From NCBI RefSeq assembly GCF_947503705.1, contig NZ_CANNES010000001.1, positions 620,001 through 684,000 on the forward strand: a stretch of 64,000 bases of DNA, given 5' to 3'. Every line of letters begins with the position of its first letter. Position 1 is the stretch's first letter. The notes beneath the pieces were generated by a model. The model was not told the origin of the DNA and made no database searches. It was given only the letters and a program-made list of their open reading frames with translations. Source of the DNA: an uncultured Tateyamaria sp. Its GTDB lineage: Bacteria; Pseudomonadota; Alphaproteobacteria; Rhodobacterales; Rhodobacteraceae. Below, one piece after another: positions 3,509 to 56,702 of the stretch. Both the position numbers and the translations under genes were made by a program.

Positions 3509-4969
3509 TTACAGGAACGCGGTTTCGTCAAATGACCGCAATTTCCGACTGTGGATACGCTCTAGCGGCATGGTGCGCAGTTGCTCCATCGATCGGATTC
3601 CGATCATCAGATGCCGCGCGACCTGAGATTTATAGAAGGTCGAGGCCATGCCCGGCAGCTTCAGCTCGCCATGTAGCGGCTTATCCGACACACACAAAAG
3701 TGTGCCATAAGGCACCCGGAACCGGTAGCCATTGGCGGCGATTGTGGCGCTTTCCATATCCAGCGCAATAGCCCGCGATTGGCTGAGGCGCTGGACCGGT
3801 CCGTGCTGGTCCCGAAGCTCCCAATTGCGGTCGTCATAAGAGGCAACCGTGCCGGTACGCATGACGCGCTTCAGCTCGTAACCCTCAAGCTCGGTCACGC
3901 CCGCAACGGCCTGTTCCAACGCGATCTGGATTTCAGCGAGCGCCGGGATTGGCACCCAGGGCGGCAGATCGTCGTCCAGTACGTGATCCTCGCGCAGATA
4001 GGCGTGGCCCAGGACAAAATCCCCCAGCGCCTGCGAGTTCCGCAGCCCCGCGCAATGCCCCACCATCAGCCAGGCATGGGGGCGCAGCACGGCAATATGG
4101 TCGGTCGCGGTCTTGGCGTTCGATGGCCCAACTCCGATGTTGACCAGAGTGATGCCCGACCCGTCGGCCCGTTTCAGGTGATAGGTTGGCATTTGCGGCA
4201 TCTTGCCCGCATCCTCGATCACGCCGTCACCGGTTGTGATGATGGAATTGCCCGTCGAGACAAAGGCGGTGTACCCGCTCTTAGGGTCGTCCAACTGGGC
4301 GCGGGCATAGGCCTCGAACTCGGACACATAAAACTGGTAGTTGGTGAACAGCACGAAGTTCTGGAAATGCACCGGGTCGGTGGCGGTGTAATGCGACAGC
4401 CGCGCCAGCGAATAGTCGACGCGCTGGGCGGTGAATGGGGCCAATGGCTCGATCCCGTCCTTGGCCGTATAGGTCCCGTTGACGATATCGTCATTGGTCG
4501 TCGTGAGGTCAGGCACGTCAAAGACATCGCGCAGCGTAAACTGCGCCGCCCCTTCCTGGGGCACCGTGATGGCGTCGTTATTGGCGACCGCAAAATGCAC
4601 CGGCATCGGGGTGTCGGAATATCCGATATGCACGGGTTGGTCGTGGTTGGCGATCAACAGGCCGATTTGCTGGGTTAGATAGTTCGCAAACAAGTCAGGC
4701 CGGGTGATCGTGGCCGCGTAGGTGCCGGGCCCTGACACATGGCCAAAACTGAGCCGCGTATCGACGCGCGCATAGCTTGACGTGGAAAACCGTACTTCGG
4801 GGTAAAACGCGCGGACGCGCCCGTCTGGCGCGCCCTTGGTCATGGCCGCAGCGAAGTGGTTGTTCAAAAAATCGGACGCCTCGTCATACAGCTGACGCAG
4901 GAGGGCAACCGCCGCCTTCGCATCGTCCATGCGTTGGTGAGGTCGCTGATCGGGTGTGAGTATTTTCAT
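3509..4969 (-). CDS. amn: AMP nucleosidase
   Basis: A 486-residue cytosolic enzyme hydrolysing AMP to adenine and ribose 5-phosphate; the length matches the E. coli Amn family (about 484). An N-terminal domain of about 170 residues precedes a nucleoside-phosphorylase-like catalytic domain with G-V-G-P-S-N, V-G-H-C-A-G-L-R and A-L-D-M-E-S-A-T motifs, the last probably holding the purine-side catalytic residues. Its start overlaps the adenine deaminase stop (ATGA at 4966-4969), so the two are co-translated and act in sequence: AMP to adenine to hypoxanthine. Confidence 0.93.
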   Translation of the reverse strand: MKILTPDQRPHQRMDDAKAAVALLRQLYDEASDFLNNHFAAAMTKGAPDGRVRAFYPEVRFSTSSYARVDTRLSFGHVSGPGTYAATITRPDLFANYLTQQIGLLIANHDQPVHIGYSDTPMPVHFAVANNDAITVPQEGAAQFTLRDVFDVPDLTTTNDDIVNGTYTAKDGIEPLAPFTAQRVDYSLARLSHYTATDPVHFQNFVLFTNYQFYVSEFEAYARAQLDDPKSGYTAFVSTGNSIITTGDGVIEDAGKMPQMPTYHLKRADGSGITLVNIGVGPSNAKTATDHIAVLRPHAWLMVGHCAGLRNSQALGDFVLGHAYLREDHVLDDDLPPWVPIPALAEIQIALEQAVAGVTELEGYELKRVMRTGTVASYDDRNWELRDQHGPVQRLSQSRAIALDMESATIAANGYRFRVPYGTLLCVSDKPLHGELKLPGMASTFYKSQVARHLMIGIRSMEQLRTMPLERIHSRKLRSFDETAFL

Positions 4970-51497: not shown

Positions 51498-51929
51498 ATG
51501 TCAAAGACTGGTTCGTGCGTCTGCGGCGCGGTGCGCCTGACCGTTACATCCCCCGTCGAAGAGACGGGTGCCTGCCACTGTGGGATGTGCCGGAAGTGGT
51601 CGGGGGGCGTTTTTCTGGGCGTGCGTGTGCCTGCGGGCGGCTTGGAAATCACAGGTGAGGACGCGATGCGCGTCTATACCTCGTCGCCCTGGGCGGAGCG
51701 GGCGTTTTGCAGCAATTGCGGTAGCAGCCTGTTTTATCGCGTGACGGCCCAGGGCCCGATGCAGGGTGAGGTTCACATTGGGTTGGGTGTACTGGACAAG
51801 GCGGATGGCGTGCCGTTGACGGGCGAGCTCTATTCGGATCTTAAGCCGGATGGCTACAGCTTTGCCCAAGAGACTCATAAGATGACCGCTGCCGAGGTCG
51901 AGGCGATGTTCGCCGCCCCACCGACGTGA
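51498..51929 (+). CDS. GFA-family zinc protein (glutathione-dependent formaldehyde-activating fold)
   Basis: A 143-residue zinc-binding protein. Cys residues lie in G-S-C-V-C-G-A-V, C-H-C-G-M-C-R-K-W-S-G-G and F-C-S-N-C-G-S-S-L-F, the classic GFA metal sites. True Gfa accelerates formation of S-hydroxymethylglutathione, but most homologues have no proved role. AAGGAGG at 51484-51490 precedes ATG 51498. Confidence 0.87.
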   Translation: MSKTGSCVCGAVRLTVTSPVEETGACHCGMCRKWSGGVFLGVRVPAGGLEITGEDAMRVYTSSPWAERAFCSNCGSSLFYRVTAQGPMQGEVHIGLGVLDKADGVPLTGELYSDLKPDGYSFAQETHKMTAAEVEAMFAAPPT

Positions 51930-51971
51930 TCCAAAGGACGCGCATGCGCGCGACACCATTTTTTGTTTTAG

Positions 51972-52014
51972 TGAGGCTCCGCCCCCGGCCTTCGACCTCC
52001 CCCGGGAGTATTTG
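51972..52014. repeat. GC-rich intergenic repeat fragment interrupted by the mobile element
   Basis: Left part reads TGAGGCTCCGCCCCCGGCC, a spacer and CCCCCGGGAGTATTTG; the continuation TGGAACAATGAAG is found at 55681-55693, on the far side of the mobile element. Joined, they resemble a dispersed Rhodobacteraceae intergenic motif that I know only as a pattern. AGTATTTG at 52007-52014 is the left copy of the target duplication. Confidence 0.6.
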
Positions 52015-52039
52015 CGGCCTTATGTATCAAACGCACCAA
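52015..52039 (+). repeat. Left terminal inverted repeat
   Basis: Exact 25-bp reverse complement of 55648-55672. It starts CGGCCTTATGTATCAAACGC and is preceded by the duplication AGTATTTG. Similarity stops at position 52040. Confidence 0.92.
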
Positions 52040-52083
52040 TAATCTACCTGAACAATTGGCCCGCGCGAATCCATAATGCGGGG

Positions 52084-52470
52084 ATGCAAGACAAATCAAT
52101 TAATGGCGCATTACTGGCACTTCGGAAACAGATCATACGGCGCGATCTGGACGGTCTGGCGCATGTGGAAGCGTTGCTGGTGATGCGTGGCGTGGATATG
52201 CCCCGCGTAATGCCAGCTAGGCGCGCCTGTGCAGCGGGTCAGGGGCAATCGCGCGCAATGGTGTTGGACGCACTCAGGGATGGCCCTAAGCTGCGTAAGG
52301 ACATTGTGAGGCATGTTGCCAGCCGTAGGCCAGAGATACCGCCAGACGTGGCCTATGCGCGCGTAGATCGAGTGCTTTGGAAAATGCGCAAGGTAGGGCT
52401 GATTGATAGGGGCTTTGGGCCAGATGGGTGTTTGTGGAAGCTGGCCCCGAAGGGCCAGCAAAACACTTAG
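52084..52470 (+). CDS. Passenger gene: possible winged-helix protein
   Basis: A 128-residue basic protein not recognised by family. The C-terminal half (about residues 58-120) looks like a winged helix: a helix D-A-L-R-D-G-P, then L-R-K-D-I-V-R-H-V-A, a helix R-V-D-R-V-L-W-K-M-R-K-V-G-L-I-D-R-G and a wing G-C-L-W-K-L. It could regulate the element. ATG 52084 lies 45 nt inside the left repeat; the opening to 52012 would start inside the repeat. It converges on the Bro-N gene with a 4-nt overlap. Confidence 0.6.
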   Translation: MQDKSINGALLALRKQIIRRDLDGLAHVEALLVMRGVDMPRVMPARRACAAGQGQSRAMVLDALRDGPKLRKDIVRHVASRRPEIPPDVAYARVDRVLWKMRKVGLIDRGFGPDGCLWKLAPKGQQNT

Positions 52471-53222
52471 GCTGCGTCGGGCTTGGGGAGAAGCTGCGGA
52501 AGGTATGGAAGTGCAGCCGGGTCGCGCGTGTTGAAGTATTCCGGAGCGTGCTCCGGTATCCAGACATCGTCGACATATTCTAGAAACAGCGGAAGCATAG
52601 AGCGCGGATACATGCGCGCATCACCCTCCCACTCATCGGTCTTGTGTGGGTAGTATTGATAATCAGCGCAAACAGTTGGATGGAATTCATCCAGCCAAGC
52701 TGCAAATCGACGCCCTACACTCACATCTGGGCGGTTCTGCTTACCGTTTGGCGCACGATCCGCCATTGTGTGGCCCACCATCTCCAAACGCCCCCATAGA
52801 CGATAAACGAGCTCGTTAATAACTGAGAAGTGAGAAGATGGAACACGATCCCAGTTTGCATTAAACCTTTTGATAAATGCTGGGACCTTGCCGCCATACG
52901 ATCCAGTCTTACGGATGGAGGGGAGGACTTCGCTCGTGACCCACTTCTTAAACCGCTTTGCTTGCGGTTTGGATGAACCCAAAATCGCAGAATAGAGACC
53001 TGACTCGTTGATGATGCGCACTCGTTGACGGCCACCAGGGGTATCGATTGTAGCGACCCCCTTCTCATCGTCGTCCAATCGACTAGCTAGATCAGATGTA
53101 TTCTTAACACCGATCTTGCGCGCCACGTCTGACAGGACAAACCAAGGCTCTCCACTTCTGTCAAAAACTCGGAAGTCAGTTTCATCTTCCTCGTAATGAA
53201 ACACCTGCATTGAAAGCTGCAT
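52467..53222 (-). CDS. Passenger gene: Bro-N domain antirepressor-like protein
   Basis: A 251-residue protein. Bro-N (antirepressor) domain at about residues 3-108: V-F-H-Y-E-E-D, E-P-W-F-V-L-S-D-V-A-R-K-I-G, T-P-G-G-R-Q-R-V-R-I-I-N-E-S-G-L-Y and K-W-V-T-S-E-V-L-P-S-I-R. The C-terminal 140 residues are of unknown fold. Bro-N proteins are common in phages and viruses and bind DNA. The start is unclear: ATG 53222 lacks a good ribosome site, GTG 53261 is possible, and the best site precedes an ATG in another frame at 53278. Confidence 0.78.
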   Translation of the reverse strand: MQLSMQVFHYEEDETDFRVFDRSGEPWFVLSDVARKIGVKNTSDLASRLDDDEKGVATIDTPGGRQRVRIINESGLYSAILGSSKPQAKRFKKWVTSEVLPSIRKTGSYGGKVPAFIKRFNANWDRVPSSHFSVINELVYRLWGRLEMVGHTMADRAPNGKQNRPDVSVGRRFAAWLDEFHPTVCADYQYYPHKTDEWEGDARMYPRSMLPLFLEYVDDVWIPEHAPEYFNTRDPAALPYLPQLLPKPDAA

Positions 53223-53355
53223 TGCAACGCGATTTGCAGCGTTGCGTTTTTCCGGCCCCACAGGCCCAAATTGCTCATGGCAACGTCCTTTCCGACGCTT
53301 TGCCGCAGCTTGTCCGCTTGACCAGCACCACAAAAAGGGTCTAGACCAAGGATAC

Positions 53356-53436
53356 AAATCAGTGGGAGGACGCGCTGCGGCGCTGATTTCAGATTTCTTG
53401 GGCCGGGACAAACTGTGGTAGGGCGTCCCGGTCCAA
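53356..53436 (-). other. Two tandem stem-loops upstream of the Bro-N gene
   Basis: First, AAATCAG (53356-53362) pairs with CTGATTT (53383-53389). Second, TTGGGCCGGGAC (53398-53409) pairs with GTCCCGGTCCAA (53425-53436) with one T-G pair and a 15-nt loop. Both lie in the noncoding stretch between the transposase and Bro-N genes, both on the minus strand. They may be a terminator-like barrier, a leader RNA or transposon-specific structure; no T-run follows, so a simple terminator is unlikely. Confidence 0.5.
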
Positions 53437-53504
53437 CCCACTAAATCAGCATATTAACCCTAGGTCACATCTGAGTCCACAGAAGTCGTGTTCTTTTTGT
53501 GTTC

Positions 53505-54467
53505 TCACGCCGCGCGCTGCCAATAACCTTTCCACTGCCGGGAAACAGGTGCAGCCATGGAATTGCTGACCACGATCTGCAGCAATGTGCCATTGTCAGT
53601 GCGGCGGTTGTCTTCGAGCCAAGCGGCATGATTGGCATATTGGTAAAGGTACTGCGGGCTAACGTGATGGTGCTGGCCCTGCACCATCCGGCGCAAGCGT
53701 GAGAAATAGCTTTCCACCATGTTCGTGTGCTTGCCGTGGTCGCTGTAAATCTCAGAGTGATTCACCCGCTCTACATCCCAGCCCGCGTGCAGCATATCCC
53801 AATGGCTGGCCTCGTCGGCTGACATGGTGGCCATGCGGTCCACGTTGTCATTGGCCAGCGCAACGCCTTCGGCCTCAGACTGCCCCACGAAAGGCAGCAC
53901 GCGGCCCTCACGCTCACGCATGGCGATAACAACGCGGCGCTTGCCTGTCTGGTGTTCTTTCTTGCGGCGGTCCACACGGTCTGCCTTGGCGTTCTCAGGG
54001 CGGATGTGACCGCCAAAGTATGCGCCATCAATCTCGACATGGCCGCTCAGCACTTCACCCGTCTGGACCTCTTGCGCCATCGCTTCGCGCAGCTTGTGGG
54101 CCAGCACAAAAGCGGTTTTGTATTGGCAATCCAGATCGCGGGAAAGCTGCACCATGGATACGCCCTTGGACGCGTTCACGATAATGCAGATCGCCGCCAG
54201 CAGGTCTACAAAGTCCATCTTGCGGCTGGCAAAGATCGTGCCGCTGGTCACGCTGAACTGGTGCGCGCAGGCCTTGCACTTGAATTTGCGGCGGGTGGTG
54301 ATCTTGTACGTCTCATCGTGACCACAGCACGGGCAGACAGCTTCGCCGTCCGTTTCGGGCCAGCGCATTTCGCAAAACGTCTGATACGCCGCGTCCTCGC
54401 CAGCCTTGTAAATCGAACGCAGGGAGAGCGTCCGAGATGCTGCTGAAAGGAGGAAGTGCTGGGCCAT
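53505..54467 (-). CDS. IS1595-family transposase
   Basis: A 320-residue transposase. A zinc ribbon is formed by C45-P-C-C48 and C64-K-A-C67. The DDE domain has V-E-I-D147-G-A-Y-F-G-G, a middle acidic A-D-E-A-S near residue 217, and H-T-N-M-V-E-S-Y-F-S-R-L-R-R with G-Q-H-H-H at 247-268. This layout is that of the ISXO2-like/IS1595 transposase. The frame is intact. It reads towards the Bro-N gene and its promoter is probably in the gap before the DUF6471 gene. Confidence 0.94.
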   Translation of the reverse strand: MAQHFLLSAASRTLSLRSIYKAGEDAAYQTFCEMRWPETDGEAVCPCCGHDETYKITTRRKFKCKACAHQFSVTSGTIFASRKMDFVDLLAAICIIVNASKGVSMVQLSRDLDCQYKTAFVLAHKLREAMAQEVQTGEVLSGHVEIDGAYFGGHIRPENAKADRVDRRKKEHQTGKRRVVIAMREREGRVLPFVGQSEAEGVALANDNVDRMATMSADEASHWDMLHAGWDVERVNHSEIYSDHGKHTNMVESYFSRLRRMVQGQHHHVSPQYLYQYANHAAWLEDNRRTDNGTLLQIVVSNSMAAPVSRQWKGYWQRAA

Positions 54468-54571
54468 TGTATCTACCGTGATTACCTATATCACACATAT
54501 AGTACGTATAGGTATGATTTACAATGGCAAATATCACATTTATAGTGCCTTTATCCAAAAAGAGGTACATC

Positions 54572-54781
54572 ATGCCGGATCAGACAGACTGGGAAGCCAA
54601 GGCAGCTAACATCTTGAAGGCGGAATTAAAGCGACAGGGCGTTACCTACGCTCGGCTTGCAGAGTTAATCGGTGACAAAGAACCCAATGTACGCAACAAG
54701 TTGAGTCGTGGTAAATTTTCAGCGGCGTATTTTTTGCAATGTCTGACGGCTATAGGAACGGAGCATTTGCACTTGGACTAA
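54572..54781 (+). CDS. Passenger gene: DUF6471 protein
   Basis: A 69-residue small protein matching DUF6471: W-E-A-K-A-A-N-I-L-K-A-E-L-K-R-Q-G, Y-A-R-L-A-E-L-I and R-G-K-F-S-A-A-Y-F-L-Q-C-L. The first helices resemble a Cro/C1-type helix-turn-helix, so a small DNA-binding regulator is plausible. ATG 54572 follows AGAGG at 54560. It is divergent from the transposase and overlaps the next gene by 43 nt, implying co-expression. Confidence 0.8.
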   Translation: MPDQTDWEAKAANILKAELKRQGVTYARLAELIGDKEPNVRNKLSRGKFSAAYFLQCLTAIGTEHLHLD

Positions 54782-55611
54782 TTGTCGGCGGCGCGCTGGC
54801 GATTATCGCAATCGTTTGGATAATAGGGCTAAACTACTGCCCAAACCAACCCTGCGATTATAGCCAAGCAGCCGATGAGCCAAGCCAAAATGCTGGCGAA
54901 CGCATATGGCAAGTGCCAGACGCCATAAGGGGCACGTTCAGTTACGAAGCGGAACCAGAGTATGCTCCAGGCAATCCCACCCGCCATGAATATTATGATC
55001 TTCGCGCTCAAGAGCGTATGGCCCATGCGACCGACTGGATTGTGTGGCTCACTTTTGTGACTGGCGCGGTGGGGGTGGCGGGCCTCGGAGCGATCATTTA
55101 CACCTTGAACCTGCAACGGAACGCCAACGAAATCGCCCTCGAAATCGGCCAAAAGCAAGTCAGGGCTTATCTTTTCGTCAAAAGTGTATCCATTCTTAGC
55201 GTTGTAACCGACGGGATTCAGGACACTATTACTCCGGTGGTTGTTTGCCATAATTTTGGACAATCTCCAGCAAGCGACATCCAAGTTAGCTTGGAATGTC
55301 GAATACATCGAAACGTCACCGATTTTTGCTCTAAAAAGTCCACAATGATCGTAATGAGCGCTGGCGATGTTACAGGGCCTTCCTCGCCATTCAGTACTTT
55401 GTTCCCAAGCCGGTTCCCCGCCGGAATCATCCAAAAGATACGGGCAGGAGAGTGTATCTTTTTTGTCTCTTTGAAAATCACATACAAGGATGTCTTTGGA
55501 TCCGATGACGAAATTAGGGCGGACTATTTTACTTATGGTGAAATGTTCAAAGAGGGCGGCACGCTTCAAACCCTCACTAAATCCAGCGTGAGACAAACCT
55601 TTAATGACTAA
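54739..55611 (+). CDS. Passenger gene: two-helix membrane protein, unknown
   Basis: A 290-residue protein I cannot name. Hydrophobic helices at about residues 10-32 and 99-120 bracket a short segment of about 65 residues; the C-terminal part, after 145, is predicted beta-rich and soluble. Its frame begins inside DUF6471 with a 43-nt overlap, with no later in-frame ATG before the first helix. Its stop is 36 nt before the right terminal repeat. Codons are AT-richer than in flanking genes. Confidence 0.65.
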   Translation: MSDGYRNGAFALGLIVGGALAIIAIVWIIGLNYCPNQPCDYSQAADEPSQNAGERIWQVPDAIRGTFSYEAEPEYAPGNPTRHEYYDLRAQERMAHATDWIVWLTFVTGAVGVAGLGAIIYTLNLQRNANEIALEIGQKQVRAYLFVKSVSILSVVTDGIQDTITPVVVCHNFGQSPASDIQVSLECRIHRNVTDFCSKKSTMIVMSAGDVTGPSSPFSTLFPSRFPAGIIQKIRAGECIFFVSLKITYKDVFGSDDEIRADYFTYGEMFKEGGTLQTLTKSSVRQTFND

Positions 55612-55647
55612 CGCAACCAGTAACGCCTTAATCATCGCTCACACCGC

Positions 55648-55672
55648 TTGGTGCGTTTGATACATAAGGCCG
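55648..55672 (-). repeat. Right terminal inverted repeat
   Basis: Exact reverse complement of the left end and followed by the target duplication AGTATTTG (55673-55680). Confidence 0.92.
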
Positions 55673-55700
55673 AGTATTTGTGGAACAATGAAGGCTAGCG

Positions 55701-56702
55701 TCACCGCGCGGCAAGCATGGCGAGGCGGATGAAGGCCCGTTCGACCAATGCGAGGGCTGGCGCGTGTTGGCCCGCGCTACGCAGTTGCAGGTCAGTGTCT
55801 GTAAGAACAGTCAGTGCGGTTTCGAGCTTTTGCGGCCCCCAACGGCGGGCCTGGGACAGCATCTTGTCCCGGTTTGGGCCCCAGATTTGCGGCCTGCCGG
55901 TCGTGTCGATGGCTGCCCGATGCAGGGTTCGGAAGTGCCGCATGGCCCCGATGCAAAGCGTGACCGCGTTCACGCCCTGGGCTTGCAACCGCTGCATCAC
56001 CGGGCCGATGGCCGCCGCCTGTCCGTCGCCTACGACCATCAGTACGTCGTCCACATCTGCCTCGAACGAGGTGGGGGCACAGTTGCTGATGTCCTCAGCG
56101 TTGAGCGGGTTCGTGTCGTTCAGTTTGTAGAGCCCGATTTTCTCGAGCGTTTGCCGAAAGTCGCCCGGTTCGAGGTTCTTGGCCAGATCCATCAGCATGT
56201 GCATCGCCTCTTGTGGCGGGTTCTGGATGCCTGCGGTTCTCAGGTCCCGCTCAATCTCGTCCCTTGTGGGGGGATTGTCGTAGATGGCCGCGGCGTAGGC
56301 CTTTGTATGACCTTCGAATGCCTTGCGTAGTTTTGAGGTGGGTTTCAGGGCGCCTGCGGTGACGATGATCTGAGCGTCGCCGGGTGCCCATTCCGACAAG
56401 GCATCCGTTATGATCGGGCCCACCGTTTCGTTCGCGTCTTCGACCAAGGCAACGCGGGGGCCGGGGAAAAAGCCGATAGCCTTGAGAGCGTCCATCAGGA
56501 GGGCCGGGTCCTTGCGCAGATCGCTGGCGGCGATCCGGGTGAGCCGCATTTCTTCCTCGCCCTGCGGTCCGATCAGCGCAGCAACCGTTTCTTGCCGTTT
56601 CAGCGCGATGCGCATGGCGTCGGCCCCAAAGATGAGAATACCGGCGGCATCGGGATCGGGTTTGGCGAAATAGCTGGCGGCCTGTCCGGTGGACAGCTTC
56701 AC
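55701..56702 (-). CDS. holA: DNA polymerase III delta subunit
   Basis: A 333-residue clamp-loader subunit that opens the beta sliding clamp. An AAA+-like N-terminal domain begins I-L-I-F-G-A-D-A; the C-terminal helical domain (W-G-P-N-R-D-K-M-L-S-Q-A-R-R-W) forms the collar. Length and weak conservation fit HolA. It overlaps lptE by 4 nt at its start, part of DUF3576-leuS-lptE-holA, a common alphaproteobacterial run. The stop lies 21 nt beyond the mobile element target copy. Confidence 0.9.
   Translation of the reverse strand: MKLSTGQAASYFAKPDPDAAGILIFGADAMRIALKRQETVAALIGPQGEEEMRLTRIAASDLRKDPALLMDALKAIGFFPGPRVALVEDANETVGPIITDALSEWAPGDAQIIVTAGALKPTSKLRKAFEGHTKAYAAAIYDNPPTRDEIERDLRTAGIQNPPQEAMHMLMDLAKNLEPGDFRQTLEKIGLYKLNDTNPLNAEDISNCAPTSFEADVDDVLMVVGDGQAAAIGPVMQRLQAQGVNAVTLCIGAMRHFRTLHRAAIDTTGRPQIWGPNRDKMLSQARRWGPQKLETALTVLTDTDLQLRSAGQHAPALALVERAFIRLAMLAAR

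Follow-up and report, generated by a model that had tools for sequence, protein, structure and literature searches.

The 64,000-nucleotide stretch of DNA analysed here (the window; positions 620,001 to 684,000 of contig NZ_CANNES010000001.1, assembly GCF_947503705.1, from an uncultured Tateyamaria sp. of the Rhodobacteraceae) contains an intact IS1595-family transposon of 3658 bp. Our best explanation, to which we give a probability of roughly 0.6, is that this is a compact, cargo-bearing type of transposon combining a fixed chassis with a cargo slot of defence-like content (slot B) and a structured leader. The same chassis holds a second cargo slot, slot A. Comparison among related elements brings out the fixed genes, the ends, the target duplications and the empty site, and indicates fast turnover of both slots.

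A fixed chassis with two cargo slots

The element belongs to the IS1595 family by its transposase domain, its zinc ribbon and its 8-bp duplication with inverted repeats. The transposase matches DDE_Tnp_IS1595 (3.6e-37) and Zn_ribbon_IS1595 (2.7e-14), and scores 128.2 bits against PF12762 (cut-off 27), 144.5 against NF033547 (cut-off 75) and, for the N-terminal zinc ribbon PF12760, 53.3 bits (cut-off 25.4). Its terminal inverted repeats (ends CGGCCTT) are complementary at 25/25 positions, and the 8-bp target duplication AGTATTTG abuts both ends. An earlier reading of the window from its letters alone, the original prediction, had described an intact IS1595-type transposon with these ends and a full zinc-ribbon DDE transposase, and that description stands. 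The element is present as a single copy in its own 4.43-Mb genome. It separates two convergent genes ending at 51929 and 55701; in a search of 20 genomes of the same genus this flanking pair lay approximately 100–230 bp apart and insert-free at 14/14 loci. The empty site anticipated earlier is therefore found, although an exact single AGTATTTG is unreadable in the diverged intergenic sequence, where several relatives retain a similar GTATTT.

Relatives came from 80 transposase loci of named genomes and from the 38 of 295 family genomes that had a DNA match, an element being counted only if both ends were present with at most 6 mismatches in 24. This yielded 77 distinct elements sharing these ends, the window copy included, with lengths of 2346–4633 bp (median 3373), and 69 of them are flanked by an exact duplication of 8 bp. 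The transposase and a P1-type winged-helix gene are present in 77/77 and the DUF6471 gene in 76/77, and the gene order slot A, DUF6471(-), transposase(+), slot B, P1(-) is kept in 76/77. The order exception is L062, where P1 lies on the transposase strand and adjoins the transposase, and where slot boundaries are unreliable as a wrong open reading frame (ORF) had been taken as P1. Transposase, ends and cargo thus form one unit, as first proposed, and the genes co-occur with the transposase in elements bearing the same ends rather than always standing apart from it. The four further genes also exist as described, two of them under the names given (DUF6471, 2.1e-23; Bro-N, 2.4e-21), but they are not four passengers. 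With the DUF6471 gene in 76/77 elements and the winged-helix gene in all 77, these two are fixed parts, therefore only the Bro-N/BstA-type protein (P2) and the membrane protein (P5) are variable cargo. The BstA-type C-terminus of P2, the cargo turnover and the leader structure go beyond what had been predicted.

The association extends beyond the counted elements. Among 198 family genomes, 13/13 full-length close transposases have a P1 match within a few kb. Other alphaproteobacterial families also carry the transposase–DUF6471 pair, mostly with P1 and partly with similar ends; all three genes occur together in L146, L147, L148, L151, L152, L153 and L156, and L170 combines transposase, P1 and P5. 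In the rest of the phylum DUF6471 is often found without such a transposase. The distant relatives L148, L156 and L166 are arranged differently, P1 adjoining the transposase or two P5-type genes following one another.

Slot B yielded 131 mechanically picked ORFs in 95 clusters, of which some short ones may be spurious; 110 entered the library scans, those left out being mostly short or antisense. PADLOC (E <=0.001) matched 67 families, led by BstA with 6 ORFs (best 3.1e-122), and Pfam found Panacea in 5, KilA-N in 3, M78 in 3, NYN in 3, HicA in 2, RelE in 1 and MqsA in 1. For comparison, 110 length-matched flank ORFs of the same loci, mostly host genes, gave one PADLOC family with one weak match. 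Slot B is therefore hypervariable and rich in BstA-like, Panacea, HicA, NYN and ImmA/IrrE-type genes, which suggests a role in defence. Slot A differs in protein type, a membrane helix being predicted in 60/80 of its ORFs (those of at least 90 aa) vs 13/74 in slot B. In the slot A scan, 88 of 93 ORFs were entered, again leaving out mostly short or antisense ones, and five M78 proteins make up most of the PADLOC matches by count. Among 16 pairs of elements whose transposases are at least 95% identical, the slot A family is the same in 3 and the slot B family in 1; cargo sharing hardly depends on transposase similarity, and cargo turnover therefore appears fast in both slots. In 14 of the 36 cases in which the slot A gene points at DUF6471, the two genes share exactly 4 nt at their stops, and this holds for unrelated slot A genes; the window P1 and P2 stops likewise overlap by 4 nt.

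This slot content bears on a simpler view, that the element is an ordinary passenger-bearing IS1595 transposon whose cargo hitch-hikes neutrally and whose defence content mirrors what mobile DNA commonly holds. IS1595 elements with passenger genes are known, as described in the accessible text of PMC11891212, and most slot B clusters are without known function. The sharp contrast in membrane helices between the slots speaks against neutral cargo, as does a fixed order with intact genes across many lineages, which suggests selection. The low flank control points the same way, though flanks are mostly host genes and not mobile elements. We regard neutral cargo as improbable. The suggestion in the original prediction of a defence, toxin–antitoxin or element-control module is thus partly upheld: slot B is defence- and toxin–antitoxin-like relative to the flanks, element control may apply to the fixed regulators, and slot A is assigned to neither.

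P2, a Bro-N protein with a BstA-type C-terminal domain

The slot B gene of the window copy encodes P2, whose C-terminal BstA domain matches phrog_6287 (4.3e-18, query residues 129-257) and PADLOC BstA (1.5e-9), the library queries (window:52470-53291) beginning upstream of the aligned P2 start. This domain aligns with five other slot B proteins while the N-domains vary: alignment and family counts give Bro-N in the window copy and L073, a KilA-N-like domain in L015, L042 and L048, and BstA's own in L014. P2 therefore departs from the KilA-N-like N-terminal domain of BstA, its own N-domain being Bro-N. No solved structure was related to P2 in sequence (best E 0.12). Plasmids of the Roseobacter group, a phage record and a viral contig encode P2-like proteins with 64-71% identity. 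Further afield, an Entomospira culicis spirochaete plasmid (L193; NZ_CP118183.1, 5726-8562) carries a Bro-N protein, matching P2 at 41.6%, two genes from an IS1595 transposase.

The domain composition of P2 also permits a different reading, in which P2 is a phage-type antirepressor governing the element or a resident prophage, and slot B consists of phage early or moron genes taken together with a phage leader. The Bro-N half has a strong match among phage antirepressors (phrog_130, 1.5e-47), P2 relatives occur in a phage record and a viral contig, and the leader and the cargo of L069 have counterparts in one viral contig just behind a repressor-like ORF. However, the C-terminal half of P2 matches BstA and not the usual antirepressor C-domains, and slot B also contains full BstA, Panacea, HicA and NYN genes. 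An antirepressor is on balance somewhat unlikely, and a BstA-like module remains our preferred reading of P2.

A structured leader shared by unrelated cargo genes

Between the transposase and P2 lies a leader predicted to fold as a three-way junction, here in its beta form. Covariance model R3, seeded with the window sequence and L015 and searched over 98 sources, matched behind the transposase in L048 (7.2e-6) and L073 (2e-5). The beta alignment of 4 sequences shows two-sided changes in 12/21 pairs and pairing in 97.5% of cells, and 0/500 shuffles equal this. An alpha-form model built from L069, L058 and L061 recovers L043, L063, L083, L077, L035, L076 and L022 at E <1e-3, and this form is found in elements with cargo other than that of the beta-form elements. 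Its alignment of 11 sequences, L075 included, has 19/26 pairs changing on both sides, 92.4% of cells paired and 0/500 shuffles. Both alignments were fitted to the structure, a bias in the structure's favour; in both forms, shifting pair partners by 1-3 columns abolishes the covariation signal. Grouping alpha and beta as one leader class rests on shape, position and motif rather than on a common model.

At least 14 of the 77 elements carry the leader (10 alpha and 4 beta), a count that includes L086 (E 0.01 with model R2) and excludes L075 as well as L083, which is not among the 77. Similar-looking leaders in L029 (E 0.046), L042, L041 and L010 were not counted; R3 did not recover L042 and L041, which are alike by folding energy. 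L075 joined the alpha alignment at E 0.048, and in L077 the leader lies inside slot B, after the first gene. A crude structure screen that picked out 40/77 elements was rejected as a count owing to many chance matches. Taken alone, the L073 leader is no stabler than shuffles (z -0.74), while that of L001 has z -2.60.

The leader is followed by a short motif at regular spacing. GTCAA lies 29-35 nt past the 3' end in 12 of 13 alpha leaders checked, the exception being L075, which lacks it, and 30-37 nt past it in 5/5 beta leaders checked, with 38 nt in the window. In the comparable stretch of leaderless elements GTCAAG occurs in 1/58, the background word in a fixed stretch being slightly stricter than the GTCAA[GTC] scored for leaders. 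The layout runs from the three-way junction across a gap of usually about 30 nt to GTCAA, and from there across about 40-47 nt to a start codon. The downstream genes form nine groups with no mutual similarity (phmmer E 1e-3); in L035 and L075 none was identified.

The same arrangement is seen outside transposons. Two viral contigs carry an alpha leader (1.5e-12 and 1.7e-5) with GTCAA at 30 nt in both; the gene that follows is a homolog of the L069 cargo (1e-40) in L280 and is 24 codons long in L273. In L280 (7835-8694) the leader stands, by eye, directly after a repressor-like ORF and before the L069-cargo homolog. Among viral contigs, with at least 120 pattern stretches, R2 was passed by 2 of the 80 loci listed. 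Genes for P2 relatives on plasmids, in the phage record and in the viral contig carry GTCAAG 43 nt ahead of their start codon. R2 is weak on the plasmid and phage leaders (E 0.42 for L113 and L115, 1.4 for L114), and R3 found no match in the plasmid, phage and viral-contig leaders of P2 relatives, with one weak L115 match elsewhere.

Searches of wider scope returned little. None of the 4227 covariance models of Rfam 15 matched window 51900-55800 at E <=1, and in six relatives none matched at the leader position. R2 in 248 family genomes gave two weak matches, one within a coding region and the other next to a transporter-like gene, and both appear fortuitous; this survey used stricter filters and scored 16 candidates per genome, and misses are therefore expected. 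The pattern TGTGATCAC-gap-GTCAAG occurs in 10/374 genomes, none of these 10 loci matching R2 at E up to 1. The reversed-pattern control gave 0 in the rows shown, a soft control because the reversed pattern contains CTAG, a rare word in bacteria.

Such a leader might act as DNA rather than RNA, either as a folded site for recombination bordering the cargo slot, or as a self-immunity element like aba, which the accessible part of PMC8585504 describes as a DNA element at the start of bstA. Structure kept despite sequence divergence, and a position at the edge of a hypervariable slot, would suit such a role. Yet the regular spacing of GTCAA and start codon before unrelated genes fits a transcript leader, and the CCCGCC repeats of aba are absent from the 282-nt leader and the first 60 nt of P2. 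We therefore judge a DNA element to be unlikely. An RNA reading of the leader is itself tentative: at a little under even odds, the leader is a regulatory RNA of a new class, a portable device placing unrelated small phage-related or defence genes of transposons, phages and plasmids under one common control that possibly senses phage infection, with these IS1595 elements as its most visible carriers.

Other features of the element

Coordinates of the element's features are collected in Table 1. The AlphaFold model of P1 (predicted local distance difference test score, pLDDT, 90.5) has a winged-helix C-domain; family matches are weak, fold matches are to generic winged-helix proteins, and a plasmid search found no relative. 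A literature search turned up no account of DUF6471. P5, whose type occupies slot A in 31/77 elements, consists in its structural model of two long helices and a beta-sandwich. Its fold matches are generic beta-sandwiches that show no function, and assigning one from them was rejected. P5 has no Pfam or PADLOC family, its NCBIfam and PHROG matches are sub-threshold, and the plasmid search found no relative.

Table 1. Features of the transposon in the window (positions counted from the first letter of the window).
Feature	Position	Strand	Basis
8-bp target duplication AGTATTTG, left copy	52007..52014	.	sequence read; exact 8-bp duplication in 69/77 relatives
Terminal inverted repeat, P1 end	52015..52039	.	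25/25 complementary to 55648-55672
P1, fixed winged-helix gene, 128 aa	52084..52470	+	P1-type in 77/77 elements; AlphaFold model
P2, slot B cargo, Bro-N and BstA-type C-domain, 251 aa	52467..53222	-	Bro-N 2.4e-21; PHROG and PADLOC BstA; start aligned to relatives
63-aa ORF in other frame, opened by start codon 44 nt behind GTCAAG	53087..53278	-	ORF list, leader coordinates
GTCAAG leader motif	53317..53322	-	sequence read
Predicted three-way-junction leader, beta form, 82 nt	53361..53442	-	covariance model R3 and covariation
IS1595-family transposase, 320 aa	53505..54467	-	domain and family-model matches
Divergent control region, transposase/DUF6471	54468..54571	.	partly conserved block over 77 elements
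P4, fixed DUF6471 gene, 69 aa	54572..54781	+	PF20075 2.1e-23; present in 76/77 elements
P5, slot A cargo, 290 aa, two membrane helices and beta-sandwich	54739..55611	+	same type in 31/77 elements; model pLDDT 72.8
Terminal inverted repeat, slot A end	55648..55672	.	complementarity to P1 end
8-bp target duplication AGTATTTG, right copy	55673..55680	.	sequence read

In the insertion context (window 51970-52014 and 55673-55710), GC-rich intergenic DNA gives way to an ATATTT/GTATTT box and then to a purine-rich tail. Parts of this stretch recur elsewhere in the same genome and genus, a similar box holds many relatives, and this context may represent a preferred, harmless landing site. A near-identical target (CAGATCTG or a variant with similar flanks) is used by six elements, L015, L039, L046, L062, L068 and L093, and looks like one conserved protein-coding site. 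Two further common target sites are shared, one by L029 and L053 and one by L041, L078 and L080. Just beyond one end of L033, at 3771-3805, there is an oppositely oriented end-like sequence, as if it were a remnant of a neighbouring second copy.

Proposed model and points against it

In the proposed model, DUF6471 and P1 would control transposase or cargo expression, or bind the element's ends, and slot B would carry small modules directed against competing phages and mobile elements. The module of the window copy would be P2, a BstA-like protein in which Bro-N replaces the KilA-N-like domain. By analogy with BstA, P2 may bind replicating foreign DNA and stop its replication, and it would be expressed behind a structured leader common to unrelated cargo genes and phage genes. 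New cargo probably enters by recombination in conserved chassis genes or in the leader.

Several observations weigh against this model. Only a minority of slot B genes match defence or toxin–antitoxin families. The CCCGCC repeats of BstA's aba are absent from the stretch searched, as noted above, although an aba of other sequence may exist. The P2-like proteins of plasmids and phages could be antirepressors. P5-type genes stand away from a close transposase in 10/15 matching family genomes, some of them adjoining end-like sequence. Finally, the relatives examined begin their BstA-like gene at the start codon that stands the usual distance behind GTCAAG (in L042 the script chose an in-frame upstream start), whereas the window start codon 44 nt behind GTCAAG opens an ORF in another frame and the P2 start lies 56 nt further on. 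Because of this frame, P2 may not be made from the window copy. About 56 extra nt (window 53223-53278) lie between the P2 start and the start codon that the leader would predict.

If slot B is defence-rich, elements of 2.3-4.6 kb with this constant chassis would rank with the smallest carriers by which antiviral modules spread, and their invariant borders make it simple to mine many proteins of both slots as defence candidates. The leader, should it act as RNA, would offer a way into the regulation of such genes by mobile elements, and it is searchable on its own.

Comparison with known systems

Siguier, Gagnevin and Chandler reportedly described in 2009 IS1595-family 'transporter IS' with passenger genes, the ISNha5 group. 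The window element resembles this group in its IS1595 transposase, 8-bp duplication and passenger genes. ISNha5-group elements in general have ends CGGnnTT and lengths of approximately 3.4-7.9 kb; the window element (CGGCCTT, 3658 bp) fits these values, although its relatives go down to 2346 bp. It differs in that the regulators here are fixed in 76-77 of 77 elements and accompanied by two variable slots and a structured leader. The accessible portion of PMC11891212 names transcription regulators as ISNha5 passengers. Plasmid matches bearing IS names are distant members. We found no printed account of the chassis, slots, defence-like content or leader, in a search that most subscription papers fell outside. 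IS1595 elements with passenger genes are already known, and the leader may be the newer part.

BstA, according to the accessible part of PMC8585504, suppresses phage DNA replication and seemingly has two separable domains; some of its homologs match the C-terminal part alone, and 15/72 are without phage genes nearby. P2 shares with BstA, as portrayed there, its C-terminal domain and a predicted viral-type N-terminal DNA-binding domain. It differs in being transposon-borne and in having no aba CCCGCC repeats over the stretch searched. The domain of the Panacea toxin–antitoxin systems (PMC8832971, accessible part) is present in five slot B ORFs of relatives but not in the window copy.

The broader design, a transposon chassis with variable cargo including defence systems, is shared with Tn7-like transposons as outlined in the accessible part of PMC8649781. 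The elements described here use another transposase and, at 2.3-4.6 kb, usually hold 1-3 cargo genes per slot. Tn7-like transposons are larger elements.

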